The notes under the pieces were generated by a model. The model searched no databases. It was not told where the DNA came from and saw only the letters and a list, made by a program, of their open reading frames with translations. Below are positions 13,899-41,286 of a stretch of 64,000 bases of DNA, piece by piece. Position 1 is the first letter of the stretch. Every line of letters starts with the position of its first letter. Made by a program: the position numbers and the translations under genes. The DNA is from Flavobacterium sp. TR2 (GTDB lineage Bacteria > Bacteroidota > Bacteroidia > Flavobacteriales > Flavobacteriaceae), in NCBI RefSeq assembly GCF_025252405.1, contig NZ_CP104307.1:4650001-4714000 (forward strand), in the 5' to 3' direction.

Positions 13899-14234
13899 TT
13901 AGCCTCTAAAGGAAGAAGCGATGCCAGTTACCACATTTGAAGCTCCAAAAGCAAACAGCCCTGAAGCAACAGCATTCTGACCAGCAAAAAATTGATTTTC
14001 GGCAATGGCGTTGCTAAAGAACAATCCGCCTGCAGCTCCCGCTATAAGTCCTATTCCAATTAATGCAATAGTCCACCAAGGTTCTGGATCTGGCGGTGGC
14101 GGCGGATTTTTCCAAAAACGTCTCCACCAGCCTGGGTATTTGGTTCCGCACCAGCCCATTGCTAAAAATAAAGCAGTTTCCATAGTTTCATGATTTAATT
14201 TTGCGCCTACTCTTTTGCTTTTCGGCTTTCGCAT
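13899..14234 (-). CDS. Small hypothetical protein with Pro-rich segment and one or two membrane helices
   Basis: 111 residues from the first ATG; the in-frame ATG at 14183 (METALFLAMGWC...) would give 94 residues and is a credible alternative start. The sequence has a Trp/Arg-rich stretch (YPGWWRRFWKN), a run of five prolines and a hydrophobic Gly-rich helix (TIALIGIGLIAGAAGGLFF) followed by a small-residue helix. No family was recognised. It is monocistronic with its own terminator, which supports a real gene. Confidence 0.65.
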   Translation of the reverse strand: MRKPKSKRVGAKLNHETMETALFLAMGWCGTKYPGWWRRFWKNPPPPPDPEPWWTIALIGIGLIAGAAGGLFFSNAIAENQFFAGQNAVASGLFAFGASNVVTGIASSFRG

Positions 14235-14417
14235 TTCGGTAAAGTAAAATTAGGACAAGGCCAATTGCATATCACAAGGCAAACCACTGTTTTTCAAAGG
14301 GGAAAAAGACCCTTTTTTTCTTCATTAACCATACTCTAATTAACATATAAGAATAGCTTAATGATATCTTAAGGCGCATTTTAAAGCTTCTTTTCATTCG
14401 ATAAATATCTTTGCCAA

Positions 14418-33272: not shown

Positions 33273-33545
33273 TTTTTTTAAAAGTTAGTAAGGTTCTGAG
33301 AGACTAAGGTTTTTTCTCTCTATTGCCTTAAATTATTTTTTATTTTTTTGCCACTAAGGCGCTAGGACGCTAAGATTTTTGTTTTTAATCTCGCAAAGGC
33401 GCAGAGTCGCTAAGTTTTTTTTCACGCAGATTTAAAATGATTTAAGCAGATATGCGCAGATTATTTATAAAAATCTTTTTAAATCCGCTGGAATCTGCAA
33501 AATCTGCGTGAAAAATTATTTACAGTCAAAGTAACCACAATATTT

Positions 33546-33673
33546 GTCATTTCGACGTTAGGAGACCCGAGCGATAGCGAACAGGCGAAACAAATCTCCA
33601 CAAGTAGCTCCGTAACATTAGTCCAATCTTTGTGGAGTTTCTCGCGGAGATTTCTCCCTTCAGTCGAAATGAC
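33546..33673. mobile_element. MITE-like element with 11-bp terminal inverted repeats, copy 1
   Basis: GTCATTTCGAC at one end and its exact complement GTCGAAATGAC at the other bound a 128-bp non-coding segment with internal complementarity (AATCTCCACAAG / CTTTGTGGAGTT). It carries no ORF and would need a transposase in trans. Confidence 0.65.
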
Positions 33674-34008
33674 ATAAAATGAGGAAAAAACCTTTCCGAA
33701 CCTTGCGTAGATCTTAGCGAACTTTGCGGTTAAAATTGCCACAATGCGTTAGACGCACTGCAGTGCGCCTCTACACTGAAAACTAAAAAACTGATCACTG
33801 ACCACTAATCCTCCTTGCTTCCATCATCTACCATTCTAACTAGATCTTTAATCTCGCGAAGTCGCTGAGTCGCAAAGTTTTTTTTCACGCAGATTTAAAA
33901 TGATTTAAGCAGATATGCGCAGATTATTTGTAAAAATCTTTTTAAATCCGCTGGAATCTGCAAAATCTGCATGAAAAATTATTTACAGTCAAAGTAACCA
34001 CAATATTT

Positions 34009-34135
34009 GTCATTTCGACGTTAGGAGACTGGGCGATAGCGAACAGGCGAAACAAATCTGCACAAGTAGCTCCGCAACGTGAGTCCAATCTTTGTGGAGT
34101 TTCTCGTGGAGATTTCTCCCTTCAGTCGAAATGAC
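34009..34135. mobile_element. MITE-like element, copy 2
   Basis: 127-bp near-identical copy of 33546-33673, carried within the second unit of the 463-bp duplication rather than by a separate insertion. Confidence 0.65.
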
Positions 34136-34266
34136 ATAAAATGAGGAAAAAACCTTTGCGAACCTTGCGTAGATCTTAGCGAACTTTGCGGTTAAAATTG
34201 CCACAATGCGTTAGACGCACTGCAGTGCGCCTCTACACTGAACACTAAAAAACTGATCACTGACCA

Positions 34267-35688
34267 CTAATCCTCCTTGCTTCCATCATCTGCCATTCTA
34301 ACTAGTTTCGGGGTAAATTTGGCAACCACATCTACTAAATCCTGTTGTGCTTCCATAACCTGATTGATATCTTTATACGCCATTGGGGCTTCGTCTAGGC
34401 CTGCTCCGATAAGCGTAACGCCATGATCGCTCAGGATCGCTTTCATCTCGGTTTGTGTAATGCTTTTTATGGCTTGGGTTCTGCTCATTTGTCTTCCTGC
34501 TCCATGCGAAGCGGAATTTATGGCGTTCTCCTCGCCTTTTCCTCTCACCAAAAATCCCGGTGCGGTCATACTTCCGGGAATGATTCCCATAACGCCTTTT
34601 CCGGCTGGAGTTGCTCCTTTTCTATGTACGATCACTTCTTCGCCGTTCCAGATTTCTTTCCAAGCAAAATTATGGTGGTTTTCGACTTTGGCTAAAATCG
34701 CCGCACCCAAAGCGCGTTCCATTTTGTTATGGATAATCTCGTGACAAGCAGAAGCGTAATCTCCAGCCAAATTCATCGCCAGCCAATATTCCTGACCCAA
34801 TTGCGAATTCATATCCAAGTAAGCTAAATTCTTAGCCACTTCTGGAAGTCTGCACTCGTCTTTGGCAATTTTAGTGTAATGTCCGGCAATGGTTGCGCCC
34901 ATTCCGCGTGAACCAGAATGCGTTAACAAAGCGACGTATTTTCCTTTTGGAATATTCAAAACCGCATCGTCTTGTGCAAATTCCATGATTCCGAATTCTA
35001 CAAAGTGATTTCCGCCGCCAGAAGAACCTAATTGCGACCAAGCTTTATCTTTCAAGTTCTTCACAAACGGATTCATATTGAAAGTCTCGTTCTCCAAAAC
35101 CGCGTGATCTGATCTGTACTGGCCGTGAAATCCGTGACCTGCTCCAAAAATGGAATTCGAGATTAATTCTTTTTTGAATTTGGCTTCGTTTTCAAAGTAA
35201 AAATCCTCTGGAATATCGTAAACCGACAACGCCATTCTACATCCAATATCCACCCCAACACCATATGGAATAATGGCATTTTTTGTAGCTAGAACTCCGC
35301 CAATCGGTAATCCGTAACCTTGATGCGCATCTGGCATTAAAGCTCCTGCAACCGTAATAGGCAACTTCATGGCCACTTCCATCTGTTTTCTGGCTCCATC
35401 TTCGATATGATCCAATCCGTAAGCAGAATACGCATTCGGGTTCTGATTTAAAGCAATGAAATCTTCTGGTTTTTCATTCGATTTTTCGATTAAAGCAACA
35501 GCCAGTTTGCTGAACACTTTATCGTCTATATAATTCTCAGGAGCTTCTAGAACATTTTTGTAATGAGCGATCATCTCGTCTCTTGTGAATCCGTTTCTTT
35601 TGCTGTTTATTTTTAAGGCAATCCCAATTATTTTTCCTTCTGGGAATCCTAATTCTAATATATCTGTACCGCTTATTTGTGTTTTCAT
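34267..35688 (-). CDS. rtcB: RtcB RNA ligase
   Basis: 473 residues from the ATG at 35688 (MKTQISGTDILELG). An open frame continues upstream to 36147, but those residues come from the tandem repeats and are not part of the protein. RtcB joins RNA 2',3'-cyclic phosphate or 3'-phosphate ends to 5'-OH ends using GTP and Mn2+. Metal and guanylylation residues are all present: GVDIGCRM (Asp 147, Cys 150), GGGNHF (His 228), THSGSRG (His 257), ENHHNFA (His 339/340) and NSASHGAGR (His 395). No rtcA or archease gene is adjacent. A 17-bp palindrome at 35750-35766, shared with the RNA array promoter, lies 62 bases upstream. Confidence 0.95.
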   Translation of the reverse strand: MKTQISGTDILELGFPEGKIIGIALKINSKRNGFTRDEMIAHYKNVLEAPENYIDDKVFSKLAVALIEKSNEKPEDFIALNQNPNAYSAYGLDHIEDGARKQMEVAMKLPITVAGALMPDAHQGYGLPIGGVLATKNAIIPYGVGVDIGCRMALSVYDIPEDFYFENEAKFKKELISNSIFGAGHGFHGQYRSDHAVLENETFNMNPFVKNLKDKAWSQLGSSGGGNHFVEFGIMEFAQDDAVLNIPKGKYVALLTHSGSRGMGATIAGHYTKIAKDECRLPEVAKNLAYLDMNSQLGQEYWLAMNLAGDYASACHEIIHNKMERALGAAILAKVENHHNFAWKEIWNGEEVIVHRKGATPAGKGVMGIIPGSMTAPGFLVRGKGEENAINSASHGAGRQMSRTQAIKSITQTEMKAILSDHGVTLIGAGLDEAPMAYKDINQVMEAQQDLVDVVAKFTPKLVRMADDGSKED

Positions 35689-35879: not shown

Positions 35880-36285
35880 AAAAACTTTGCGGAGACGCAC
35901 AGCAGTGCGCCTCTACAAAACCTTTGAACCTCTGAACCTTTGTACCTAATTTCCCAAACTTTGCGAAGACGCACAGCAGTGCGCCTCTACAAAAAACCTT
36001 TGAACCTTTGCCTCTCTGAACCTTTGTACCTAATTTACCAAACTTTGCGGAGACGCACAGCAGTGCGCCCCTACAAAAACCTTTGAACCTTTTTCCTCTC
36101 TGAACCTTTGTACCTAATTTACCAAACTTTGCGAAGACGCACAGCAATGCGCCTCTACAAAAACCTTTGAACCTTTGCCTCTCTGAACCTTTGTACCTAA
36201 TTTACCAAACTTTGCGGAGACGCACAGCAATGCGCCTCTACAAAAACCTTAGCATCTCAGAACCTTAGTACCTCAGCACCTTTTT
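35880..36285. repeat. 74-84 bp tandem repeat, five units, upstream of rtcB
   Basis: Units beginning at AAACTTTGCG recur at about 35882, 35956, 36040, 36124 and 36207 (offsets 74, 84, 84, 83). Each contains one palindrome of the GACGCACAGCAGTGCGCCTCTAC type followed by ACCTTTGAACC-type text. The array fills the gap between rtcB and the upstream RING-like gene; its translation gives the spurious upstream extension of rtcB. Confidence 0.9.
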
Positions 36286-36287
36286 TC

Positions 36288-38528
36288 TTAATCTATTAAC
36301 AACTGTGTAACAACCGCTGGATTCATTGCCCATTGCGCTGTATACACCTCATCGGCAATTTCATTTTCGGTGATTGTCAAACCTTGAGCTTCCGCTTTAA
36401 GCTGTAACAAACTACCAATATTCAATTTGCTGTTTAGTTTTGCCAACAACGCCTGAACACCTTTGAAATCCAATCCGCCTACAACCTGACCTCCGAAAGT
36501 CATCTCTAACCAAACGATTTCTCTTTTGGCTACATCCAACACTCCAAAAACCAAACCTTTGGCCACATTCTGCGTCACACGAACCTGATGATCTACACAC
36601 GACGGATCGTACGCGACACCTGTTTTCTCCGAAATTTTCATCGGATACTTGCTGTTCATCCAACCTACAACCAAATTTGGCGTAATACTTCCGTTGCTGT
36701 ACGCATTGCAGGTAAACGTTACAAACTTAGCTTTGGCTTTCGCCAATTCGTCGATGTTGATGTTGATATATTCGGCAGTTCCAATTTTATTCGGAATGCT
36801 TCGGATATCACCGCTATGCTGGCAACCTGTTGTGGTCAATCGGCTGAAAGAACAAATATCTGAACGATCTTCGTAGGCAATATGACAGCTTAAATCCATA
36901 TCCAAATGTTGTGCAGGAAGATCTTTACCCCATTGCATAAACAATCGCACTTCGTTTCCTTCAACTGGAAAACGGGTTCCCATTAAAGCAACTGGCAAAT
37001 CTTGAACTGTTTCGCTTCGATCTCCTATAGAAACCGGAATATTAAACAATTGCGGATCGATATAGATTGTTTTGCTGGTATTTGGAACTGCAGCAAATCG
37101 TTTTTTTATGGCCAAAAGACATAATTCTTCAATTTGGTTTTTCATTGCTTCCAACTGAAAATCTTCGTACAACTTCAATAAAGCGTTAGCTTCAATTCGT
37201 TTGTTTGTTCCGCCCAAAGGTTTCACGCTTCTCTGCATATTTTTATCAAAATAATTTTGAGCATACATATTTAAAGTAAACACCAATCGAGCCGGAACTT
37301 TATCGATGATTTCCTCAAAATGGGCAACAGTTTCGTCCGCACCAAACCAAAGCATATTCGAAAATAACGAACGTGCAAATAAGCCTGGACGCTGTTTTAA
37401 CAATGCAAATGTTTTATCGGCATCAAATTTTAATCTTGACGAATTCACTTTGCTTTGCCAAACGTCATACACTTGGTTGTAGAACACATCCATTAAAAAA
37501 TTCAATTTCTCGAATCCTTTTCTTTTGCTGTATTCTGCCAAACGAAGCGCTCGGATAAAACGAACCCACATTCCTCTTTTTGGATGCATGGATTCGCACA
37601 TCGCTTCAACTTCCATATCCATATTATTCAGCCAATTTGCTACCATCAAACATTCTTTTCGAGAATATTTCAGTTTCAAATCTTTCTGAGATGCAATTCT
37701 CGCCTGAACGCTTGTATCCAAAACATTATGAAAATGCTGTCCGTTTTTTGATGTTCTTTTGATAATTGTTTTTGGCTCAATAATTTGAAGCATACCTGTG
37801 TTTTTATACCACAAGTATCGCAAGATATCTGTTGGCGTTTTCAAAAACTGAGATGCTTGGTCTTCTTTACCATTTTCAATCAAAAGATCGATCACCAGCA
37901 TTAAAGTTTCCTTCATTGCCACTTCTGTTTTTGGCAAAGGCAAATAGTGCATCGCCATTTTTAAACTATCTACCTGAGTAGCGTCTAAAGCGGTTTTAGA
38001 TTGCAATAACGATATATAGAAATCATTTAAATCTTTTTCTGTCCATAATTCCAACATTTTCAATTTGCTTCCTTGTCCGATATTTTCCAGTTTTCCAAAT
38101 TCAAACGGAGTTCCGCAGAACGGACAACCATTGTATCTTTCTAGTGGAAAAGTATTATCTGGAATACTATGACCGCACTGTAATTTAGTTCCATTTTTAG
38201 TCTGAAAAATATTTCCAAAAAACGTGATGATATGATCTACAACAGATTCATTGGTTGGAATATTCCATTCTTTTACCAATGGCGTCCAATTTTTATCTGT
38301 TCCTAAAATTGCTCTCAAGACTTCTAAAACCTCGATTTTATAAGTCGGGCTCACATTGTTTAAAGCATGAAGCAAAGACTCAGAAAATGTAAATCCAAGT
38401 TTAGAAACATTGGCTAACAAAACTGAAGTTGTTCCTGATAAATTTTTAACGTCATTCGCAATCATTTCTGACGGAATGAAAATAGCATTTTGGCGTAAAC
38501 TGATTTTTAATAATTCTTTTGTTTTCAT
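36288..38528 (-). CDS. RING-like/TerD-like protein (MXAN_6230/SCO0854-type)
   Basis: 746 residues. A zinc-finger segment KLQCGHSIP ... GCPFCGTPFEFG places Cys118, His120, Cys135 and Cys138 in a treble-clef or RING-like arrangement. A long helical middle follows (about 150-480). The C-terminal about 200 residues resemble the TerD fold (HLDMDLSCHIAYEDRSD ... AEYININIDELAKAKAKFVTFTCNAYS ... VVGWMN). The overall plan fits the MXAN_6230/SCO0854 family of prokaryotic RING-containing proteins; the biochemical role is unknown. It lies upstream of rtcB on the same strand, and its leader is the five-module RNA array at 38551-38963, so a role in RNA damage or repair is inferred. Confidence 0.8.
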   Translation of the reverse strand: MKTKELLKISLRQNAIFIPSEMIANDVKNLSGTTSVLLANVSKLGFTFSESLLHALNNVSPTYKIEVLEVLRAILGTDKNWTPLVKEWNIPTNESVVDHIITFFGNIFQTKNGTKLQCGHSIPDNTFPLERYNGCPFCGTPFEFGKLENIGQGSKLKMLELWTEKDLNDFYISLLQSKTALDATQVDSLKMAMHYLPLPKTEVAMKETLMLVIDLLIENGKEDQASQFLKTPTDILRYLWYKNTGMLQIIEPKTIIKRTSKNGQHFHNVLDTSVQARIASQKDLKLKYSRKECLMVANWLNNMDMEVEAMCESMHPKRGMWVRFIRALRLAEYSKRKGFEKLNFLMDVFYNQVYDVWQSKVNSSRLKFDADKTFALLKQRPGLFARSLFSNMLWFGADETVAHFEEIIDKVPARLVFTLNMYAQNYFDKNMQRSVKPLGGTNKRIEANALLKLYEDFQLEAMKNQIEELCLLAIKKRFAAVPNTSKTIYIDPQLFNIPVSIGDRSETVQDLPVALMGTRFPVEGNEVRLFMQWGKDLPAQHLDMDLSCHIAYEDRSDICSFSRLTTTGCQHSGDIRSIPNKIGTAEYININIDELAKAKAKFVTFTCNAYSNGSITPNLVVGWMNSKYPMKISEKTGVAYDPSCVDHQVRVTQNVAKGLVFGVLDVAKREIVWLEMTFGGQVVGGLDFKGVQALLAKLNSKLNIGSLLQLKAEAQGLTITENEIADEVYTAQWAMNPAVVTQLLID

Positions 38529-38550: not shown

Positions 38551-38963
38551 GATAATGGTGTTTCTGAGTTCTACCTAAAAGATTTTGAAGTAAGAAACAC
38601 TTGACCTGAAATTTGACGATAATGGATTAACTAAGCTAAAATGGAGCGGGCTACCGCGAAAGAAGTAAGTTAATCTTGACCCTCGATTTTTATTAATGAT
38701 GATTTTAAAACTTGCCGGACTCGAACCGTAGTATCCAATTTCCTGAAGTAAGTTTTAATTGACCATTAATTGTAAAGCAGGTGGGATTCGAACCCACGAC
38801 CCGGACATTAAAAGTGTAAGAAGTAAATTTTGATTGACCTTTGATGGATAATTTCAAAACTACCTGCTCTACCACTGAGCTACTGCTTCCTATATAATGG
38901 AATAAAAAGGTAATGGTGTAAGTGTGTACGTGGAAAGTGTTTCGAAGTAACTCAAACTTGACC
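38551..38963 (-). ncRNA. Array of five covarying RNA modules (leader of the RING-like gene)
   Basis: On the minus strand, element X = GGTCAA-N7-TTACTTC occurs five times, exactly, at 38944-38963, 38820-38839, 38745-38764, 38662-38681 and 38587-38606. Element Y = N7'-[CA]AT[TC]A[TC]C occurs at 38909-38922, 38847-38860, 38698-38711, 38618-38631 and 38551-38564. In each X/Y pair N7 and N7' are complementary although their sequences differ: GTTTGAG/CTTACAC (6 of 7), TCAAAAT/GTTTTGA (7 with one G-U), TTAAAAC/GTTTTAA, GATTAAC/GTTAATC, GTGTTTC/GAAACAC. Four pairs enclose a 28-40 base loop with X first; in the second, Y precedes X inside a tRNA-like RNA. An extra 8-bp stem (38966-38973 with 38900-38907) surrounds the first module. 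The last module ends 22 bases before the RING-like ATG. Confidence 0.85.
38773..38889 (-). ncRNA. tRNA-like RNA with expanded anticodon region
   Basis: The minus strand has a 7-bp acceptor (GAAGCAG/CTGCTTT, first pair G-U), U8-A9, a normal D-arm (GCTCAGTGGTAGAGC) and a perfect T-arm (GTGGGTTCGAATCCCAC). In place of a 17-base anticodon arm there are about 63 bases that contain Y (GTTTTGA-AATTATC), a 7-base linker and X (GGTCAA-TCAAAAT-TTACTTC), so the module stem GTTTTGA/TCAAAAT replaces the anticodon stem. No anticodon can be assigned and CCA is not encoded. It may be a Y-RNA-like tRNA mimic or a tRNA with an intron-like insert. A second, weaker T-arm-like piece (CGGTTCGAGTCCG) sits in the loop of the next module at about 38717-38729. 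Confidence 0.75.
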
Positions 38964-39013
38964 TGTTTTATTCTTTATTTTATTTCTATGAACGTTTGTT
39001 TTTATTTTCTGAA

Positions 39014-39049
39014 CAAAGATTTCAAAACTAGCGCGCAGTTATTTTGCGC
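39014..39049 (-). promoter_or_regulatory. Operator/promoter element of the RNA array (copy A)
   Basis: Plus strand: CAAAGATT (39014-39021), 11 bases, then GCGCAGTTATTTTGCGC (39033-39049), a perfect 5-7-5 inverted repeat. On the minus strand the palindrome sits where a -33 element would be, and AATCTTTG is a near-consensus -7 box. Transcription would start about 45 bases before the first RNA module. Confidence 0.65.
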
Positions 39050-39102
39050 AGTAAAATTTTTGCTTCATTTTTTTAGAAATACTGTTTGTTTTATTTCTTG
39101 AG

Positions 39103-39138
39103 CAAAGATTTCGAAACTACTACGCAATTATTTTGCGC
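39103..39138 (-). promoter_or_regulatory. Operator/promoter element of the RNA array (copy B)
   Basis: Plus strand: CAAAGATT (39103-39110), 11 bases, then ACGCAATTATTTTGCGC (39122-39138). It is a direct repeat of copy A, 89 bases further upstream; about 40 of 46 bases match across the pair. Confidence 0.6.
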
Positions 39139-39235
39139 AGTAAAAAAAGAATTTTAAATTTGAGTAAAACATTTATTTACAAAAGTCACATAAGTCAAAG
39201 CGGGACTGAATATTTAAAGCTTTTTGATTATGCCT

Positions 39236-39447: not shown

Positions 39448-40062
39448 ATGATTCTAAAGAAAATATATTCTGATTTACTCTCCAATATTGGCTTTTCAGC
39501 AAATGAAATTCAGCAAAACTGGTTGGATTTAGAAAAGGCATATTCTAAAAAATCAAGACATTATCATAATCTCACGCATTTAGAAGAAATGATTGAGAGT
39601 TTTGAAACGTATCGTGGCAAACTTCAAAACCCAAACGAAATATTGTTTTCTATTTTCTATCACGATTTTGTGTATTCGGCTTCCAAAAAAGATAACGAAC
39701 TCAAAAGTGCCGAATATGCTTTATCGATTCTGCCCAAAAATATCAATCTTAATAAACAATTGGTCTTTGATGCGATCTGTGCCACGCAGCAACATCAGCA
39801 TAATTCTATTGAAGACATTAATTGGCTAATTGATTTTGATTTGAAAATTCTGGCTAAAGATTGGGACGATTATAAAATCTATTTTGAACAGATCAGAAAA
39901 GAATACCGCATCTATCCTGATTTTCTCTACAAACCTGGGCGCGCGAAAGCGCTGAAGCATTTTCTGGAGAATGAATTTATTTTTCAAACCGATGAATTTA
40001 GGAGTTTGTATGAAGAGAAAGCAAGACAAAATATCGAAAAGGAAATTTCATTATTAATGTAG
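39448..40062 (+). CDS. HD-superfamily metal-dependent phosphohydrolase
   Basis: 204 residues of the predicted metal-dependent HD phosphohydrolase group. The ligand His/Asp residues are visible in SRHYHNLTHLEEM, FSIFYHDFVYSASKKDNE and the later ATQQHQHN and INWLIDFDLKILA segments; a conserved YRIYPDFLYKPGRAKAL follows. The natural substrate of this group is not known. It is divergent from the RING-like gene across the RNA array and is followed by the WYL regulator, so it probably belongs to the same RNA-repair neighbourhood. Confidence 0.85.
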   Translation: MILKKIYSDLLSNIGFSANEIQQNWLDLEKAYSKKSRHYHNLTHLEEMIESFETYRGKLQNPNEILFSIFYHDFVYSASKKDNELKSAEYALSILPKNINLNKQLVFDAICATQQHQHNSIEDINWLIDFDLKILAKDWDDYKIYFEQIRKEYRIYPDFLYKPGRAKALKHFLENEFIFQTDEFRSLYEEKARQNIEKEISLLM

Positions 40063-40248: not shown

Positions 40249-41286
40249 ATGTCACAAAACAAAAATGCCTTAATTCGGTACAAAACGATCGATAAATGCC
40301 TTCAGAATAAATACAGGCAATGGACGCTCGAAGATTTAATCGAAGAATGTTCTGAAGCCCTTTCTGAGTACGAAGGACGTCAGAACCCAATCAGCAAGCG
40401 AACCATACAGATGGATATTCAGCTGATGAGAAGCGAAAAATTGGGTTATAACGCTCCAATCGTGGTTTACGATAAAAAGTATTATAAATATGACGACGAA
40501 GATTTTTCGATAACCGATATTCCGCTGACGGAAACAGATATGAATGTTTTGACAGAAACCGTTTCAATGTTGAAGCAATTTAAAGATTTCTCTCTATTTA
40601 ATGATGTCTCAGATATTCTTCAGCGTTTGGAAGATAAAATTTACGCTGAGAAATCGCATACCAAACCAGTTATCTATCTGGACAAAAATGAGAAGCTAAA
40701 AGGACTGCATTATCTCGATGAAATCTATCAGGCCATAATCAAGAAAATGGTTCTCATCATTACTTATAAATCTTTTAAATCTGCTGAAGAAACAAAATTT
40801 CATTTTCATCCTTTTATTTTGAAGGAATTTAATAACCGCTGGTTTTTGATCGGAAAGAAAAAAGCGTCACAGCCGATTACTAATTTAGCTTTGGATAGAA
40901 TCATCTCGATTGACTACGATTTTAATCATCATTATTTGGATGAAGATTTTGATGCCGATGATTATTATAAAGATGTCATTGGCGTTACGGTTAATTCGGG
41001 ACTAAAAGCAAGACGAGTTGAATTATGGGTCGATGCCTCGAATGCGCCTTACGTGCTCACAAAACCGCTGCATATTTCGCAACGCATCATTAAGCAAAAT
41101 GAAGATGGAAGCATTATCGTGCATTTGTTTGTGATACCGAATTATGAAATGGAAAGGCTTTTTTTAGGTTTTGGAAGCTGTGTTGAAATTCTAAAGCCAG
41201 AAGGTCTGAGAAATCGTATGAAAAAGATACTTCAAGATGCTATTTTGCGCTATAATCGAGAAGAACCGACTGAAATTAATTCATAA
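40249..41286 (+). CDS. WYL-domain transcriptional regulator
   Basis: 345 residues. The N-terminal about 80 residues form a winged helix (IRYKTIDKCLQNKYRQWTLEDLIEECSEAL ... ISKRTIQMDIQLMRSE). The WYL domain lies at about 150-235 (MVLIITYKSF ... FHFHPFILKEFNNRWFLIGKKK ... ALDRIISI), and the WCX-like C-terminal part ends with MERLFLGFGSCVEILKPEGLRNRMKKIL. WYL proteins sense nucleic-acid or nucleotide ligands and often control RNA-repair and defence genes. It is the best candidate to bind the 17-bp palindromes at 35750, 39033 and 39122, but this is inference from proximity. Confidence 0.88.
   Translation: MSQNKNALIRYKTIDKCLQNKYRQWTLEDLIEECSEALSEYEGRQNPISKRTIQMDIQLMRSEKLGYNAPIVVYDKKYYKYDDEDFSITDIPLTETDMNVLTETVSMLKQFKDFSLFNDVSDILQRLEDKIYAEKSHTKPVIYLDKNEKLKGLHYLDEIYQAIIKKMVLIITYKSFKSAEETKFHFHPFILKEFNNRWFLIGKKKASQPITNLALDRIISIDYDFNHHYLDEDFDADDYYKDVIGVTVNSGLKARRVELWVDASNAPYVLTKPLHISQRIIKQNEDGSIIVHLFVIPNYEMERLFLGFGSCVEILKPEGLRNRMKKILQDAILRYNREEPTEINS

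Follow-up and report, generated by a model that had tools for sequence, protein, structure and literature searches.

Introduction

What kind of RNA is encoded by the five repeated modules that lie ahead of a 746-codon gene in Flavobacterium sp. TR2, and which protein would such an RNA work with? The locus is part of a 64,000-nucleotide stretch (the window; positions 4,650,001 to 4,714,000 of contig NZ_CP104307.1, assembly GCF_025252405.1) in which the array, its adjacent gene encoding a RING-TerD protein and the RNA ligase gene rtcB follow one another on the minus strand. A preliminary description had proposed that the modules are small RNAs cut at their Y-linker-X junctions and sealed, perhaps circularised, by RtcB, or else damage-sensing decoys for ribonucleases, and had pointed to the tRNA-like Y RNAs that some rtcB operons carry; on present evidence these Y RNAs are the closest kind. 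Our preferred interpretation, to which we assign a probability of about 0.72, is that the locus encodes a Y-RNA-like array of five modules whose shared stem would dock on the adjacent RING-TerD protein and display tRNA-like payloads, as Y RNAs do on Ro60/Rsr. No description of a RING-linked array was present among the literature matches listed.

Results

Architecture of the array

Each module combines a strand A, GGTCAA-N7-TTACTTC (motif X), with a strand B, N7'-MATTAYC (motif Y). Five exact copies of X stand on the minus strand (X1 to X5 in Table 1) at spacings of 75, 83, 75 and 124 bases in ascending coordinates, and in array order their stems pair at 6, 7, 7, 7 and 7 of 7 positions, confirming the copies, spacings, partners and stems of the preliminary description. 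A search of the whole window with up to two mismatches returned eight matches to X against 2.14 expected, the largest of 100 shuffles giving six; the three matches outside the array sit elsewhere and carry two mismatches each. Four modules are hairpins in the order A-payload-B. Copy 2 is inside out, with its partner upstream, the order B-linker-A and the stem opening the other way, so that the complementary N7' previously described for every copy stands and the partner layout needs amending here. In module 2 this B-linker-A unit of 41 bases interrupts a tRNA within its anticodon arm, and the Rfam tRNA model still matches at 49.2 bits across the insert. The payload of module 3 holds a T-arm sequence, CGGTTCGAGTCCG, together with a D-loop-like TTGG (arm labels by eye).

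The tRNA was the sole Rfam match for the array region, and at E-values up to 10 only the tRNA had E <0.1 and no Y RNA family appeared, a weak test of Y RNA identity given that the nine TROVE-type loci scanned likewise match none at the gathering threshold. Reading the array as a phage element was tried and rejected: scanning viral contigs with the insert pattern gave six stretches, apparently chance matches in coding DNA, and no arrays. A further recurrent feature, recognised by eye, is an AGG[GTA]A stretch in last-module payloads and in loop-inserted tRNAs (TTTTAGGTAGA, AGGGA before the 3' anticodon stem).

Conservation and covariation of the stems

Relatives were retrieved through the RING gene; 115 stretches matched, 104 of these encode a relative and the best 80 were kept. 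All 80 of these RING loci carry two to seven X motifs (at most one mismatch), with none on the reverse strand. With position as the sole criterion for the partner, 248 hairpin modules are paired at 6.58 of 7 positions, compared with 3.93 for shuffled partners (largest of 1000 shuffles, 4.27). Related genomes do carry homologous arrays with compensated stems. In the last module, 99.1% of cells are paired and 7 of 11 pairs have changed on both sides among 30 sequences taken from 55 distinct ones preselected for at least 5 of 7 pairs, plus that of the window; none of 500 shuffles, nor any slide of the partner, reached this level of covariation. The GGU of strand A can pair with the partner AYC and a U-A pair can lengthen the 7-base-pair stem, but three of these four outer pairs are invariant in the 30 last modules and covariation is silent on those three. 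An A closes the payload before N7' in 242 of the 248 hairpins. The stems inserted in tRNAs (n = 74; 6.53 paired against 6.18 shuffled, largest of 1000, 6.31) are almost one and the same stem in all loci and add little by themselves. The preliminary description's view of the modules as a structured RNA, conserved, with compensated stems and tRNA-like parts and located near rtcB, is thus supported.

The RING-TerD gene is a closer companion than rtcB

The association of array and RING gene also holds in two genome samples. In a family sample of 299 genomes the RING gene occurs in five, and clustered exact X motifs occur in four of the five and in none of the 294 genomes that lack the gene; in the fifth positive genome inspection by eye showed a degenerate array. 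In a phylum sample of 247 genomes, which overlaps the family sample, motif clusters were found in 6/6 RING-positive genomes and in 0/241 others. Of 81 loci, 43 include rtcB in their fetched stretch, a count in which the window is scored as lacking it, its own stretch having ended before rtcB. Among the remaining loci 36 of 37 genomes have the gene elsewhere, compared with 112 of 247 genomes of the phylum sample. In three loci (L111, L112 and L114) the rtcB gene found upstream of the array belongs to another subfamily (27-29% identity). Since RtcB is in the fetched stretch of just 43/81 loci, the RING-TerD gene is the closer companion of the array; the RtcB association noted earlier persists at that lower frequency. 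In two loci a 3'-5' exonuclease-type gene follows RING-TerD (L092:6901-7446 and L214:5735-6229), and rtcB was not found in the L092 stretch.

The RING-TerD protein is a near full-length profile match to NF041916 (MXAN_6230/SCO0854 RING; E 9e-36), a family whose name implies no function, at 123.4 bits, below the curated membership cut-off of 600. We considered whether it is a recognisable TROVE homologue and rejected this: the TROVE profile PF05731 was not listed for any of 28 members at E-values up to 1, and hhalign gave P 0.45. Of the structure predictions compared for a Ro60 fold, the better model had a predicted template-modelling score (pTM) of 0.79. From its position and conservation beside the array, the RING-TerD protein is the likely partner of these RNAs in place of Ro60.

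Sister loci carry TROVE/Ro60 and a related array

RING-TerD and TROVE appear to exchange places. In the phylum sample TROVE occurs in 18 genomes, RING-TerD in 6 and both in none. TROVE stands beside RtcB in Flavobacterium G510, G490 and G352 (loci L191, L190 and L189), whose RtcB proteins are 96, 93 and 81% identical to that of the window. In G510 the order is TatD (97%), RtcB (96%), TROVE, palindrome, 204-amino-acid gene (85%) and WYL regulator (93%), an order that matches the window's, with TROVE standing where the array and RING gene stand.

Behind TROVE lies an array of the form UGYYGUA-N7-UACUUCG, payload, N7'-N6-UYRCY. Its motif was found downstream of TROVE in 14 of 18 loci, at least one in each and 58 modules in total, and TACTTC is present in all 58, the search pattern having permitted four readings. 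When every pentamer was scanned, allowing a gap of 5 to 7, and shuffles were treated alike, 36 of 51 distinct modules paired at 6 or 7 of 7 positions, against a shuffled mean of 6.2 modules and a largest value of 13, and the gap was 6 in 32 of the 36. Taking the last pentamer position instead gave 3.77 of 7 against 3.00 (largest shuffle 3.44), above every shuffle but by a small excess because this rule can choose the wrong pentamer. A test accepting any 8-mer within about 190 nucleotides gave 47 against a shuffled mean of 36.7 (largest of 200, 44). In 13 of the 18 TROVE loci a T-arm word precedes a D-arm word within one module, as in a circularly permuted tRNA, and in L191 the stem exits the tRNA after D stem-A-GG, by eye the same place as the window's insert. 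The two motif types are kept apart, the strict TROVE-type motif being absent from the 81 RING loci and the RING-type X (up to one mismatch) from the nine TROVE loci scanned.

Split tRNAs, RtcB splicing and nuclease decoys

A tRNA with B-linker-A inside its anticodon arm occurs in 80 of 83 loci. Of 99 split-tRNA rows found, nine without a canonical D arm were dropped, and the remaining 90 include some cases in which a single locus was read twice or in nested form. In 68 of the 90 the insert interrupts the anticodon stem after its second base pair, and behind the insert comes a 3-base-pair stem with a 7-base loop, most often ACA-CTTTTAA-TGT (34) or ACA-CTTCTAA-TGT (16), with covarying stems ACG/CGT, GCG/CGC and GCA/TGC. 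In ten rows the 5-base-pair anticodon stem lies wholly outside the insert, and 12 fit neither rule. In one Aquimarina locus (L095) an entire hairpin module is nested within the insert.

One alternative reading is RtcB-dependent splicing or circularisation. If the stems juxtaposed cut sites, a nuclease or ribozyme could cut and RtcB could seal the ends, producing small circles as well as a spliced tRNA. In the 68 rows, a tRNA freed of the insert and of a few bases beside it would regain a 2-base-pair plus 3-base-pair anticodon stem with a 7-nucleotide loop, and RtcB is encoded nearby or elsewhere in almost all of these genomes (43/81 stretches and 36/37 of the others). The distance from stem to tRNA body is, however, variable: by eye, the 5' parts end in AGGTA, AGGTTA or AGGTCA and 0-2 bases follow TTACTTC, which provides no fixed splice ruler. 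In the ten rows with a complete anticodon stem outside the insert, cleavage at the ends of the stem would give loops of 13-25 bases rather than 7; the permuted tRNAs of TROVE-type arrays need no such reaction; and RtcB is present in 112 of the 247 phylum-sample genomes while arrays are present in 6. Cutting at the Y-linker-X junctions with RtcB sealing, as the preliminary description proposed, therefore gained no support, and we regard splicing or circularisation as highly improbable.

The same anticodon loops bear on a second alternative, in which split Lys/Arg-like tRNAs act as decoys that absorb or report attack by anticodon nucleases and their fragments induce the operon. The loops are mostly CTTTTAA or CTTCTAA, which by position we read as anticodons UUU and UCU. 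An excerpt of PMC7790460 describes a Salmonella operon uniting rsr, Y RNAs and rtcBA (rsr-yrlBA-rtcBA) that is induced by tRNA fragments, and lists the Y RNA YrlA as a possible competitive inhibitor of a nuclease; yet the same excerpt states that YrlA is no substrate of the Salmonella nuclease, and several payloads in the arrays studied here have no anticodon loop. We consider a decoy role unlikely, and continue with RING-TerD docking as the more probable function of the stems.

Similar hairpins in further Rsr- and RING-linked records

To the Bacteroidota loci we added stretches from six records linked to Rsr and six records, from outside Bacteroidota or with unassigned host, that encode distant RING homologues (22-25% identity over 49-96% of the query). 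Beside Rsr, hairpins of the form GGUG..stem-UUACUUC (or UUCCUUC, AUACUUC) were recognised by eye in a Deinococcus gobiensis plasmid, Xanthomonas phage Olaya and the crAss-like phage csAssE-Sib; the pattern search itself matched Olaya twice and csAssE-Sib once, the latter by chance. A Brevundimonas phage has motif variants, the motif was not seen in a Rhizobium plasmid, and a haloarchaeal virus gave no pattern match. From these loci, UUACUUC seems to be a frequent mark of Y RNAs linked to Rsr.

Nearer RING homologues, on a Hymenobacter and a Segatella plasmid, are preceded by a split tRNA and by X motifs of the RING type; a Prevotella plasmid has one X with one mismatch. Beside the distant RING homologues, hairpins N7-UU[AC]CUUC-payload-A-N7' with 7/7 pairs occur in Rhodococcus phage Weasels2 (three), a Niallia plasmid (two), a gut phage (two) and a Streptomyces plasmid (one), where 20 base shuffles of each record average 0 to 0.15. 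One of the three Weasels2 hairpins has a T-arm before a D-arm, and RtcB is annotated in the same stretch. Variovorax and a Salicola phage have no hairpin on the strand of the RING gene, and this generic rule also gave off-target matches, one on the reverse strand in each of L216 and L218 and one within the RING gene in L213. RtcR, which activates RNA repair, is annotated close to the RING gene of Variovorax.

The placement of these hairpins speaks to the idea that the modules are a cis-acting leader that controls expression of RING-TerD (and RtcB), perhaps by binding a protein or by being cut by a nuclease within the 5' untranslated region. Such a leader would suit the window, where the last module ends 22 nucleotides from the RING start codon, and the related loci, where the array likewise stands between palindrome and gene. 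That position is nonetheless not required, as TROVE-type arrays and the Weasels2 and Niallia hairpins are downstream of TROVE or RING, and we regard cis control as quite improbable compared with a Y-RNA-like array.

Genomic context

The array is set between a doubled palindrome and the RING gene. In 73 of 81 loci the 250 nucleotides that precede the first X hold a CGCA-N6..10-TGCG site, which only 58 of 1181 random stretches of 250 nucleotides do. A divergent WYL regulator was found in 60 of 81 stretches and is the likely reader of the palindrome. Six loci contain, close to a RING or TROVE gene, an additional tRNA-like RNA whose D-arm-like and T-arm parts stand about 140 bases apart; it is absent from the window, and in L053 CGCA-TGCG palindromes surround it. 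The window further contains repeats on both sides of rtcB and a DUF805b RNA (Table 1).

Table 1. Coordinates of the array, its neighbours and other features (window positions unless a locus is given)
Feature	Position	Strand	Details
Array	38551-38963	-	five modules
Module 1	38909..38963	-	X1 38944-38963 (GGTCAA-GTTTGAG-TTACTTC), 21-nt payload, Y1 38909-38922 (CTTACAC-CATTACC); 6/7 pairs
Module 2	38773..38889	-	tRNA 5' part 38861-38889, 3' part 38773-38819; Y2 38847-38860, linker 38840-38846, X2 38820-38839; 7/7 pairs
Module 3	38698..38764	-	X3 38745-38764, Y3 38698-38711; 7/7 pairs
Module 4	38618..38681	-	X4 38662-38681, 30-nt payload, Y4 38618-38631; 7/7 pairs
Module 5	38551..38606	-	X5 38587-38606, payload AAAATCTTTTAGGTAGAACTCA, Y5 38551-38564; 7/7 pairs
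RING-TerD protein, likely partner	36288..38528	-	746 aa
rtcB	34267..35688	-	473 aa; PF01139 E 1.1e-82; start chosen by eye
Palindrome, proximal copy, predicted WYL operator	39030..39052	.	ACTGCGCA-N7-TGCGCGCT
Palindrome, second copy	39119..39141	.	
204-aa gene, divergent	39448-40062		no Pfam match
WYL/WCX regulator, divergent	40249..41286	+	
Minisatellite copies	35900-36290		TTTGTAGAGGCGCA..TGCTGTGCGTCT..; separate RING gene from rtcB
Tandem near-repeat	33479-34240		covers rtcB 3' end and downstream; open reading frames 33479-33742 and 34010-34204 nearly identical
DUF805b RNA	14204-14235	-	Rfam, 41.6 bits
Additional tRNA-like RNA	L053:3824, L055:3819, L079:3817, L084:3830, L103:3823, L189:5060	-	

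Discussion

The array described here has much in common with known Y RNAs and differs from them chiefly in its companion protein. Y RNAs are bound by Ro60 orthologues in all organisms studied, as stated in an excerpt of PMC4726728, and their stem tethers Rsr while the tRNA-like domain binds PNPase (excerpt of PMC8394870). Like the bacterial Y RNAs YrlA and those of Deinococcus, which the excerpted parts of PMC8394870 and PMC7790460 place near rtcB in some bacteria, the modules have a basal stem and a tRNA-like domain. The window array shows a basal paired stem with an internal loop and has UUACUUC behind the first strand of this stem, where the Rsr-linked loci examined above have UUACUUC or UUCCUUC, a motif whose value as a mark of Y RNAs in general is our own reading. 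It differs from bacterial Y RNAs in that the internal loop is shorter, the stem of one module splits a tRNA that is not permuted, the array precedes its gene, and that gene encodes RING-TerD rather than a TROVE/Rsr protein. We set the array apart from Y RNA proper because the defining Ro60 partner was looked for and no TROVE gene was found in the window's genome; we know of no founding Y-RNA partner other than Ro60. As far as sequence tells, the array would work like a Y RNA, and it shares the Y RNA mark.

Two further systems offer useful comparisons. Archaeal intron-containing and permuted tRNA genes, which depend on the RtcB ligase and a bulge-helix-bulge, resemble the window in having an anticodon-arm insert or a permuted order, but the window has a stem with conserved flanks in place of the bulge-helix-bulge. 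As in the Salmonella rsr-yrlBA-rtcBA operon (PMC7790460, excerpt), the window brings together the gene of an RNA-binding protein, in its case predicted, tRNA-like RNAs and rtcB, with the differences that a WYL regulator replaces RtcR and RING-TerD replaces Rsr.

Because position, motif and payload make the array the same kind of RNA, RING-TerD is predicted to bind the module stems and to present tRNA mimics in a WYL-controlled repair operon. The payloads may then recruit tRNA-handling enzymes, whether PNPase, as in the known Rsr ribonucleoprotein, or RtcB here, and tRNA damage could lead the WYL regulator to induce the operon through the palindrome. More broadly, we consider it rather probable that RING-TerD proteins, in Bacteroidota, Actinobacteria and their phages, and Bacillota, constitute a second class of Y-ribonucleoprotein proteins that evolved or persisted without a TROVE domain, possess their own N7-UU[AC]CUUC tRNA-mimic arrays and swap with Ro60 in RNA-repair operons.

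Arrays of this type can be searched for by their conserved motif, and the unpermuted split tRNA illustrates the relation of a Y module to a tRNA. That the same operon is found with TROVE and one array or with RING-TerD and another hints at what an unnamed protein family may do, and the exchange between the two amounts to a natural swap experiment on the role of Y RNAs in RNA repair.
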